Made by a program: the position numbers and the translations under genes. A stretch of DNA of 29,083 nucleotides from a virus. Position 1 is the stretch's first letter; every line of letters starts with the position of its first letter. Below are positions 3,367 to 5,436 of the stretch, in pieces. The notes beneath the pieces were generated by a model. The model was given only the letters and a program-made list of their open reading frames with translations. It had not been told where the DNA came from and did not search any database. The stretch covers positions 1 through 29,083 of IMG/VR virus record IMGVR_UViG_3300042448_000330, one strand, 5' to 3'.

Positions 3367-4296
3367 TTAAAATGGTTTAAAGTTTCGTAATTTTTCACTT
3401 GTCGACATAATGCCGTCGGTTATTGTTTTTTGTATGTCTTTAGGTCTGTGTTTTTGTAGTGGGTCTATTCCGTTAATTGTAAACCCTAAGCCACTATTAA
3501 AGTCGCAAACTACTGGGTAATCAATTTCGGTATGCTTACCGCCCGTTTCGGTGTCCTTAACTTTTTCGACGTTCACCCAGGTTTTAAATTTGTATTCGGG
3601 GTGTTTAATTAGGCGGTGTATTACTAACATGTCGTCGCAGCGGTTCAAAAAGGCCTTCCCGCCTTCTATTCCATCCTTTAAGGGGGCTTTCAAATGTCCT
3701 TTTAGTTCGCCTTCGGTGTATAAGTTACCGCTTCGGCCGCTTTCAGTATTCGGGTGGGTGTTTATGTATATAGTCATGCCCGTACTATTGACAAATTGGC
3801 GTGCGGTATTCATAAATTCGTAATTCCCACTAAACGACATTTCTCGGTCTAGACCCGTAAAAGGGTCAATAAGCCCAACTTTGCACCCACTTTGTGCAAA
3901 TAGCGCCAATATTTCTTCGGGTTTGTACAAATTCGAGTTGTCAATAAATGTAAAGTATTGTTCTAAGTACGCAACGTCGCCCGCTATTTGCGAATGGGTT
4001 AATTTATTAAAATGTTTGCCTCGATACATTTGTACCATGTCGCGAAGTATTTGCCCCTTTTGGTTTTCACCCGACCAAATGCAGAATGTTAAGTCGTGTT
4101 TTAAAGCTAGGGTAAGAAAGTACCAATTTATCCAGTACGTTTTACCTACGTTGTCATGTCCTAAAATGATATTGAGTTGCTTAGGTTTGAATTTAAGGTG
4201 TTCGTCTAGCGCACAATCTAAGCCAAGCCCTTGTTTTATTTTGCCGTCCCTTACGTCTAGTAAGTATTGCAGCGCGTCGCCTTGTTTGAGTAGCAT
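3367..4296 (-). CDS. RecA-fold (DnaB-like) replicative ATPase/helicase
   Basis: A 309-residue ATPase. Walker A is GHDNVGKT (residues 46-53); Walker B ends VGLIDPFTGLD with Asp144; a sensor-like strand IYINTHPN follows at about 176-183. The order and spacing match the RecA-fold domain of DnaB-type helicases and RepA/AAA_25 ATPases, with WSGENQKGQILRDM corresponding to the catalytic Glu region. It lacks a DnaB N-terminal domain, so it is a single-domain helicase or a RepA-like ATPase. It starts 1 base after the stop of the replication-initiation gene, and both sit behind the promoter and attenuator-like leader at 4895-4999. Confidence 0.82.
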   Translation of the reverse strand: MLLKQGDALQYLLDVRDGKIKQGLGLDCALDEHLKFKPKQLNIILGHDNVGKTYWINWYFLTLALKHDLTFCIWSGENQKGQILRDMVQMYRGKHFNKLTHSQIAGDVAYLEQYFTFIDNSNLYKPEEILALFAQSGCKVGLIDPFTGLDREMSFSGNYEFMNTARQFVNSTGMTIYINTHPNTESGRSGNLYTEGELKGHLKAPLKDGIEGGKAFLNRCDDMLVIHRLIKHPEYKFKTWVNVEKVKDTETGGKHTEIDYPVVCDFNSGLGFTINGIDPLQKHRPKDIQKTITDGIMSTSEKLRNFKPF

Positions 4297-4297
4297 G

Positions 4298-4888
4298 TTA
4301 ATTGTTTTTTAGGTGAGCTAAGATAGCGTCGCTTTCAGTAACTATGGTTCTATTTGCGTATTTATCCAAAGTTTCGGCCCTACTAAAAAATTCGGGTGTA
4401 CAATAGTTGTAATTGTTGTCTTTATGAAATTGGTTTTCTTTGCAGTTTTTTATTGCGTTTATAATGTCTTCTTTTATGTACCCGTCTTTTAGACGTGAGT
4501 AATAAGAACGCTTTACTTTTTCTGTAATTACTTTAAAATTTCTACCAAAAGTATTATTAACGAAGTCAAGCAACGCTTGATAGTCTATTTCTTCTTTCTC
4601 TTTCCCTTTCTCTTTCTCTTGTACCGAAGGCCCTTGCGTACCCCCTTGCGTAGGGTCTTGGCTAGGGTCTTGTAAAGGTCGTTTTGTCTTGTCTTCGTAA
4701 CCCTTTATTTGCTTGTCTATTGAATGCTTTTGCGAAAGATACGCGAACTTGACTAAGCCTTTTAGTTCTGTTTCTTCACCTGTAAATTGACGTGTAAGTA
4801 ATGCGTCGTAAAACGCTAACCTATCTTTGTCGTTTAGTTCCTTTGCTACGTCCCAGTAGCTTCGATAAAAATTAAATGCTTGCCTCAT
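4298..4888 (-). CDS. Replication initiation / helicase-loading protein (Phg_2220_C-like)
   Basis: A 196-residue two-domain protein. Residues about 1-65 form a helical domain (FNFYRSYWDVAKELNDKDRLAFYDALL) typical of a domain found in Bacteroidota phage initiators (DUF6291-type). A Pro/Gln/Lys-rich linker (KRPLQDPSQDPTQGGTQ, then KEKGKEKEE) leads to residues about 100-180, IDYQALLDFVNNTFGRNFK...YYSRLKDGY...YCTPEFFSRAETLDKYA, the conserved phage C-terminal domain Phg_2220_C of DnaD-like initiators. Upstream is a 122-base leader with a -7 box and terminator-like hairpin; downstream is the ATPase. A role in origin melting or helicase loading is inferred from family and context. Confidence 0.82.
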   Translation of the reverse strand: MRQAFNFYRSYWDVAKELNDKDRLAFYDALLTRQFTGEETELKGLVKFAYLSQKHSIDKQIKGYEDKTKRPLQDPSQDPTQGGTQGPSVQEKEKGKEKEEIDYQALLDFVNNTFGRNFKVITEKVKRSYYSRLKDGYIKEDIINAIKNCKENQFHKDNNYNYCTPEFFSRAETLDKYANRTIVTESDAILAHLKNN

Positions 4889-4894
4889 ATTTTA

Positions 4895-4988
4895 CTGCCT
4901 TAAAATAAAAAAAGCCCCTTTGGCGTTCGCGAGGCAGCGTTACTAACCAAAAGAGCTTCAATAATGTTTTACATGGGCCTGCCTACCC
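4895..4988 (-). promoter_or_regulatory. Attenuator-like leader of the replication genes
   Basis: On the minus strand the leader contains GCCTC (4935-4931), a 12-base loop, GGGGC (4918-4914) and seven Ts (4913-4907): a short terminator-like hairpin about 20 bases before the start codon at 4888. The left arm lies inside CTGCCT (4937-4932). That hexamer is perfectly complementary to AGGCAG at 4984-4979, at the very 5' end of the predicted transcript, and to another AGGCAG at 4900-4895 after the T-run. Mutually exclusive pairings are the layout of an attenuator. It may instead be a plain terminator for the upstream genes. Confidence 0.5.
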
Positions 4989-4991
4989 GTA

Positions 4992-4999
4992 CAAATATA
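4992..4999 (-). promoter_or_regulatory. -7 box of a promoter for the replication genes
   Basis: TATATTTG on the minus strand (4999-4992), a perfect TAnnTTTG box in the gap between the DnaA-like gene and the initiation gene. Predicted start of transcription is about 4988, which places AGGCAG at the 5' tip of the RNA. The -33 region is poor: no TTTG at the usual 19-22 base spacing. Confidence 0.55.
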
Positions 5000-5010
5000 A
5001 CGTATAAACT

Positions 5011-5436
5011 TCAAAAAGGTTGCACGGCTTCTTCTTTTTCTTCGTAAAAACCCATTTTTATCCGTCTTTGAATACGTTTAAATGACACCATATTGTGGGC
5101 CTTAAGTATGTCGACCTTTAAGTCGTAGTCTTTTTGCGTCTTAAACACTTTCGATATGTCGGGTAACTCCGCGCCGTCTAAGTAGGCTTGAAGCGCGCAC
5201 GTTTCGGCTAGGTAATCCGTATCGCGATAGCTAGTTAAGTCTTTATGAACGCGTAACCCGTGTAAAATTGTAGCGTGGTTCTTGTCAAAAACACGGCCAA
5301 TTTCCGAAAGACTAAGACCACACGTCCGTAATTCATTGTAAAGGTAATAGCGTTTAAAAAGTACGTCGCGGCGTCTGGACTTGTCAAGTAGTCCGTATTT
5401 TTCTATTAGTTCGTGTATTGAAGTAAGGCGGTTCAT
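5011..5436 (-). CDS. Stand-alone DnaA domain-IV-like DNA-binding protein
   Basis: A 141-residue protein whose N-terminal half matches the C-terminal DNA-binding domain of DnaA: YYLYNELRTCGLSLSEIGRVF followed by DKNHATILHGLRVHKDL (signature at residues 51-67, with the H-A-T and L-H residues that in DnaA contact the DnaA box). No AAA+ ATPase domain is present. The start at 5436 overlaps the preceding stop (ATGA); an upstream in-frame start would run 66 bases into that gene. The C-terminal half is basic and unassigned. Likely recognises a phage origin or regulates the operon; the DNA repeats at 6743-6800 are candidate sites. Confidence 0.8.
   Translation of the reverse strand: MNRLTSIHELIEKYGLLDKSRRRDVLFKRYYLYNELRTCGLSLSEIGRVFDKNHATILHGLRVHKDLTSYRDTDYLAETCALQAYLDGAELPDISKVFKTQKDYDLKVDILKAHNMVSFKRIQRRIKMGFYEEKEEAVQPF

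Follow-up and report, generated by a model that had tools for sequence, protein, structure and literature searches.

A conserved leader RNA with predicted kissing loops and a terminator-like hairpin at the entry of replication genes in Bacteroidota phages

Kissing hairpins with loops of 6-7 nt are characteristic of ColE1 RNAI/RNAII and other plasmid copy-number controls, in which the loops diversify between replicons, and the RNAI/RNAII loops define plasmid incompatibility groups. The phage leader described here also has putative kissing hairpins at a point of replication control and diversified loops, but it carries both loops in one transcript. Guanidine-IV consists of two hairpins linked through a loop-loop pseudoknot; the 3' one is a terminator, and the kiss impedes full closure of its stem (PMC7736828, PMC9788692, PMC11611296). 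This topology is that of an ON switch, and a stretched linker has been proposed to block the outer terminator pairs (PMC7736828, PMC9788692, PMC11611296). With guanidine-IV (mepA/GGAM-1)/Gd4v the phage leader shares two hairpins with a loop-loop pseudoknot, a 3' Rho-independent terminator (predicted here from sequence and fold), a short single-stranded linker, and a place ahead of several non-homologous genes. On the other hand, its kissing nucleotides are not conserved in the way a conserved pocket would require, its internal loops differ, and it is found in phages and not upstream of transporters; the ligand of guanidine-IV is known. A further relative in layout is the HK022 put RNA, likewise a phage leader whose two stem-loops come straight after a promoter (a putative one here, suggested by a TAnnTTTG box), which differs in acting on distant terminators, in having no reported kissing loops or U tract, and in showing no sequence similarity to the present element.

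The leader was studied in a 29-kb virus record (IMG/VR IMGVR_UViG_3300042448_000330), whose analysed stretch of 29,083 nt is called the window throughout. Its terminase, portal, NinG, Erf and replication genes are those of a Bacteroidota tailed phage. The leader lies on the minus strand, between the end of a DnaA-C-like helix-turn-helix gene and the start of a DUF6291/Phg_2220_C-like gene, the C-terminus of whose product is replication-initiation-like by PHROG matches (Table 1); the ATG of the latter stands 18 nt past the last T of the U tract. The window holds eight AGGCAG/CTGCCT sites, three of which fall within 90 nt at the leader. A sequence-only reading had located CTGCCT at 4937-4932, AGGCAG at 4984-4979 and 4900-4895, and seven Ts at 4913-4907, and these strings and coordinates are correct. 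Its description of a leader RNA at the entry of the replication module, with a terminator-like hairpin, also stands, and its suggestion that replication entry is controlled here is plausible.

Table 1. Predicted parts of the leader and neighbouring genes, in window coordinates
Feature	Coordinates	Strand	Basis or remark
Upstream gene, DnaA C-terminal-like helix-turn-helix protein	5011..5436	-	Below Pfam cut-off, E 9e-7
Putative promoter -7 box TATATTTG, Bacteroidota TAnnTTTG type	4992..4999	-	Sequence; 3 nt ahead of first stem
P0 5' arm, GGGT	4985..4988	-	MFE fold
K1, AGGCAG, 6-nt loop of hairpin A, K2 kissing partner	4979..4984	-	K2 pairing, swap test
P0 3' arm, GCCC	4975..4978	-	MFE fold
Linker	4960..4974	-	Usually 13 nt in relatives
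P2 5' arm of terminator stem, GAAGCTCTTTTGGT	4946..4959	-	Fold; P2 covariation in relatives
Internal-loop strand UAGUA(A), GAA opposite (bulged-G/loop-E-like), and P3 5' arm CG	4938..4945	-	Sequence; 61-element census
K2, CTGCCT, apical loop of terminator hairpin, can kiss K1 or K3	4932..4937	-	Fold, covariation
P3 3' arm CG and internal-loop strand CGAAC	4925..4931	-	Fold, covariation
P2 3' arm, GCCAAAGGGGCTTT	4911..4924	-	Fold
U tract, 7 U	4907..4913	-	Sequence
Third hairpin H3, ATTTTA[AGGCAG]TAAAAT, with loop K3 (4900-4895), abuts ATG	4889..4906	-	Fold
Downstream gene, DUF6291 N-terminus and Phg_2220_C-like/phage replication-initiation-like C-terminus	4298..4888	-
Next gene, DnaB/primase-helicase-like replicative helicase	3367..4296	-

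The hairpin itself has to be redrawn. The earlier reading had placed it at 4935-4914 with CTGCCT in its left arm; those 5 bp (GCCUC/GGGGC, -7.1 kcal/mol) are not favoured, since the MFE structure holds instead the 14-bp stem P2 (4959-4946 with 4924-4911, -16.5 kcal/mol as a bare stem), topped by the small stem P3, with CUGCCU in or beside the apical loop. Being much weaker than P2 and not conserved by relatives, the shorter hairpin was rejected. A separate 4-bp hairpin at the 5' end (4988-4985/4978-4975) presents AGGCAG as a 6-nt loop. Pairing of AGGCAG with CTGCCT was also said to break the hairpin, but the contacts are predicted to be apical, loop-loop ones; because K1:K2 would be such a kissing helix, K1 and the terminator stem do not compete for bases. 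An attenuator based on shared bases was dismissed as well, given that the partner of both K1 and K3 is K2, at the apex of the hairpin, and not an arm of P2. Taken alone, the window architecture exceeds chance modestly (it scores 61, and the best of ten shuffled windows scores 59; folding z = -1.97), and it is the comparative evidence, not the window alone, that makes the element certain.

For that comparison, 50 related loci were collected via the downstream protein, and upstream of those genes the same interleaved layout recurred in quite different letters. A descriptor scan requiring a U run and compatible stems brought the set to 61 distinct relatives in phage contigs (FCL-2 included), to which the phage isolates 11b and phi18:3 add two. 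The layout opens with the TAnnTTTG box and closes with the U tract; between them lie hairpin A, whose stem P0 carries loop K1, then a linker, then hairpin B, in which an internal loop separates P2 from P3 and K2 forms the apex. The box precedes the start of P0 by 2-6 nt in 45 of 46 elements measured, and 25 different P0 stems were counted among 46 relatives. A U tract of 6-8 T is present in 59 of 61 elements, a count biased upwards because the scanner required a T-run; in phi18:3 the tract is interrupted (TTTTATGTTTTT), and in phage 11b P2 is imperfect. Between the terminator hairpin with its U tract and the downstream start codon there are usually 8-45 nt, occasionally 0-4 nt. Upstream of the box, an A-rich block runs from 13 to 8 nt ahead of it in most copies, with A at 64-85% per position; no TTG at a fixed -33 spacing was seen upstream of the leaders in the elements measured.

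The pairing is borne out by several comparisons. Nine leaders were aligned by sequence, without reference to structure; 97% of the cells in this alignment are paired, double-sided changes occur in 19 pairs (shuffled mean 9.0), and a shift of the partner by one base lowers the pairing to about half. Within the same alignment the kissing helix is 100% paired, four of its eight pairs being doubly changed, and P0, P2 and P3 covary as well. A covariance model was then used in which P0, P2 and P3 were included and the kissing helix was left out. Among the 23 distinct loop pairs found in this way, a loop matches its own partner over a mean of 7.9 nt, compared with 4.2 nt when partners are swapped; none of 20,000 permutations, in a set with 17 different first-8 K1 sequences, reached the observed sum of own-loop pairing, although permutation does not fully remove relatedness. 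Across the 61 distinct elements, 31 different K1 sequences are found, with compensatory changes in K2. Both loops are also accessible in the unpseudoknotted ensemble (K1 is unpaired with a median probability of 0.90, K2 with one of 0.84), and the kissing duplex has a median energy of -11.6 kcal/mol. Formation of a loop-loop kissing helix by K1 and K2, and the RNA structure around it, are well supported by covariation. The sequence-only reading had named compensatory changes in relatives as informative, and K1:K2 shows them. As to whether relatives lose AGGCAG while keeping the hairpin, the outcome is divided: the relatives found keep a K1:K2 pair with changed letters, but the K3 copy is confined to the window's subclade.

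The internal loops of the 61-element census fall into two main types, UGAA/GGAU (tandem G-A-like) and AGUA/GAA (bulged-G, loop-E-like), the latter being the window's type. Conservation of nucleotides is seen within a subtype (ATTATA after K1; TGAA/GGAT or AGTA/GAA in the internal loops), and the conserved unpaired nucleotides differ among subtypes. The covariance model matched most loci of its own subtype and missed the window's; a single pattern for the second subtype returned no matches. In Cellulophaga phage phi18:3 (L203:2642), the two strands of the first internal-loop type have changed places, giving GGAU/UGAA and not the UGAA/GGAU of most relatives, which is what a near-symmetric, tandem G-A-like loop would lead one to expect.

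The earlier proposal that both AGGCAG copies matter, and that one loop has two mutually exclusive partners, holds for the window's subclade, where the second copy covaries with the first and with CTGCCT. K3 equals K1 (AGGCAG or GTGCAG), with a matching K2, in all eight distinct subclade leaders found by the scan, and no K3 copy near the start codon was detected in the 53 elements outside the subclade. Within it, K1:K2 and K2:K3 are both 100% paired, with two doubly changed pairs each, and P0 shows a one-sided change from U-A to U-G. One leader (L166) carries the GTGCAG triplet on a P2 stem nearly the same as the window's, so the triplet changed against a conserved background. These changes represent few events, perhaps one or two; they support functional competition between K1 and K3 without proving it. 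The stem of H3 alone amounts to about -1.6 kcal/mol and the K2:K3 kiss, as a duplex, to about -8.4, which suggests that H3 is stable mainly while kissing. Two other roles for this region were rejected. The AGGCAG ahead of the ATG is not a Shine-Dalgarno-like site, as sister leaders read GTGCAG there, matching K2 and not the anti-SD; and leader-peptide attenuation was set aside because the in-leader ATG of the window is an ATG-TAA that reads ACG-TAA in L004, L020 and L193, the start-stop not being conserved.

Most copies of the leader lie directly, or one small gene, ahead of a replication initiator or helicase loader, and these downstream replication genes belong to several unrelated families. 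Other copies precede genes for thymidylate synthase (thyA), an MT-A70 methylase, an SNF2-like helicase or an HNH endonuclease. One leader ahead of non-homologous genes is what would be expected of cis control. All copies found lie in phage records, the isolates being FCL-2 (F. columnare), 11b (Flavobacterium sp.) and phi18:3 (Cellulophaga baltica). The descriptor scan gave no copy in phage 6H or Riemerella phage PJA1, and blastn for copies in isolates returned only noise because the sequence diverges too fast. No copy was found in 395 Bacteroidota genomes with model R1 or a strict pattern, a weak negative, as R1 misses the window's subtype and no genome served as positive control.

We favour, with somewhat more confidence than doubt, the reading in which this element acts in cis at the 5' end of a phage replication operon, as a leader RNA built on a kissing-loop-coupled intrinsic terminator. 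Transcription would start just ahead of hairpin A, at a promoter suggested by the conserved box. K1 would be presented first and could pair with K2 while the 3' arm of P2 is still inside RNA polymerase, as K2 leaves the polymerase before that arm and K1:K2 can therefore form first. P2 might then close fully at the U tract, where its stem and the U run point to termination, or be held back by the strained kissing structure and the linker; its closure would determine what share of polymerases continues into the replication-initiator or helicase-loader gene. That the kiss gates the terminator is suggested by analogy with guanidine-IV. The linkers of 13-15 nt may, however, let the kiss and a full P2 coexist, in which case kissing would stabilise termination and not oppose it. 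The interrupted U tract of phi18:3, the imperfect P2 of 11b, the differences among subtypes in conserved unpaired nucleotides, and the absence of any apparent ligand or protein partner also speak against the favoured reading. In the window's subclade, K3, which a weak AU hairpin displays next to the start codon, would compete with K1 for K2 and probably couples the read-through decision to translation initiation. Most likely the element is an intrinsic terminator gated by a kissing loop, resembling guanidine-IV riboswitches except that it lacks a conserved ligand pocket. A kissing loop that may gate a terminator without such a pocket would isolate the mechanical step proposed for guanidine-IV, and the 31 natural loop variants, together with a subclade that has two rival partners for one loop, make the proposal directly testable by loop swaps. 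Furthermore, a structured RNA family stands at the entry of DNA-replication genes, whichever replication protein is used, in diverse Bacteroidota phages (three isolates with different hosts and dozens of metagenomic contigs), among them many viruses of Flavobacterium-like bacteria, and it probably decides how often the replication genes switch on.

One unlikely alternative is a free-standing small RNA of the phage, about 80-100 nt long and equipped with a promoter and a terminator of its own, for which the kiss would be the mature fold, the target would lie elsewhere, and the operon would follow because phage genomes are compact. The tight flanking of the structure by putative promoter and terminator, the strong covariation and the U tract of 6-8 nt in most copies would all suit such an RNA. 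Against it stand the short distance to the start codon and the promoters themselves: a TAnnTTTG box occurs just before or beyond the likely start codon in six of 61 elements, and most copies have no second promoter, so that the gene seems dependent on read-through. Moreover, the RNA almost always fronts the replication operon, whichever gene comes first.

Two further explanations strike us as improbable to a similar degree. In the first, the folded leader would bind RNA polymerase in the manner of put and make it resistant to pauses or terminators met further on in the early operon; HK022 putL also has two stem-loops directly after the promoter, and put RNA works on its own (PMC9378689). The leader can stand at several operons in a single phage, as this reading would allow, but nearly all copies retain the U tract, which, like kissing loops, is not reported for put, and no sequence or Rfam relationship was seen. 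In the second, a knotted 5' end would protect the message or gate the ribosome, the U-rich part being an unstructured landing site. Flavobacterial mRNAs favour A/U-rich, SD-poor initiation regions, and H3/K3 of the window's subclade either adjoins the start codon or takes in part of it, both of which fit a leader acting on translation or mRNA stability; outside that subclade, however, no K1 copy lies near the start codon, and a stem followed by a U run is the layout of a terminator.

More doubtful still is an extension in which the terminated leader would serve as a phage-specific antisense regulator, its free K2 kissing K1 or K3 of new initiator mRNA and repressing it according to phage copy number, so that fast-changing loops would form mutually insensitive "incompatibility groups". 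A small-molecule riboswitch of a new class appears very improbable. The architecture equals that of guanidine-IV/Gd4v, and some nucleotides are conserved within each subtype, yet the nucleotides of the kissing contact, thought to build the guanidine-IV pocket, vary freely (31 K1 sequences), unpaired conservation shifts among subtypes, and every copy found is in a phage record. Hardly credible is the idea that AGGCAG/CTGCCT/AGGCAG are DNA-level repeats bound by a DnaA-like protein or part of an origin: a DnaA-C-like gene adjoins and three copies of one 6-mer are clustered, but DnaA-like proteins about 93-95% identical to the window's accompany completely different K sequences, and G-U wobbles with compensatory changes in P0, P2 and P3 indicate selection on RNA pairing.

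Compared with catalogued RNAs, the leader has no counterpart that we could find. No family in Rfam 15 matches the window leader at gathering scores; permissive thresholds gave only sub-threshold matches at chance level, so that known families were rejected, and no match to guanidine-IV, whose presence in Rfam 15 was not separately confirmed. The RT-14 RNA (RF02921) shares a 3' hairpin with UAGUA/GAA (loop-E-like) above a stem, after an A-rich linker; it scored 22.9 bits on the window leader against a gathering score of 48.1, with no convincing match to the 5' half, gave no match at the leaders of 13 other records, and passed the cut-off in none of the 14. No published description of the element was found in the literature searched, the coverage of which is incomplete, so that prior notice is possible; for human-gut data, candidate RNAs outside Rfam are reported to number in the thousands (PMC8040213). 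As judged from comparative sequence data, this is a real, conserved phage leader RNA, which we did not find catalogued.

The surroundings of the leader offer some observations of their own. Among the kin of the DnaA-like neighbour there is one fixed site, at which the gene behind the leader varies and the helicase after it is often the same; the variable genes encode DUF6291 proteins or products beginning MSGWIKLH... (resembling DnaD-like helicase loaders), MSKELPFF... or MAKDKKSF.... In the window (4298-5436) and in L143-L171, the promoter and leader stay while the first replication gene is swapped between non-homologous families, and the DnaA-like gene beside the swap is often 93-95% identical between contigs. 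The site downstream of the DnaA-like gene is a modular swap site for replication initiators. In the gene family studied, the phage record OQ791282.1, "Shigella phage Henu10", gives a match whose coordinates and identity equal those of the match to Riemerella phage vB_RanS_PT15, so the host named for Henu10 may be mistaken.

In some phages the leader occurs twice, with kissing loops that differ: ahead of the replication operon and ahead of a methylase, helicase or HNH gene. Examples are L081 (13067-12962 and 11346-11243, minus strand), L037 (2533-2637 and 4843-4965), L069 (3390-3285 and about 408, minus strand) and the phage G014 (L122:788 and L123:7495). Such pairs were not accepted as proof of selection against cross-talk, as most random pairs of elements differ anyway. 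In two phages, HNH (NUMOD4-like) genes seem to own a promoter and kissing-loop leader (L069 at about 408, minus strand; L122:788, plus strand), as if the leader were travelling with a mobile HNH endonuclease.
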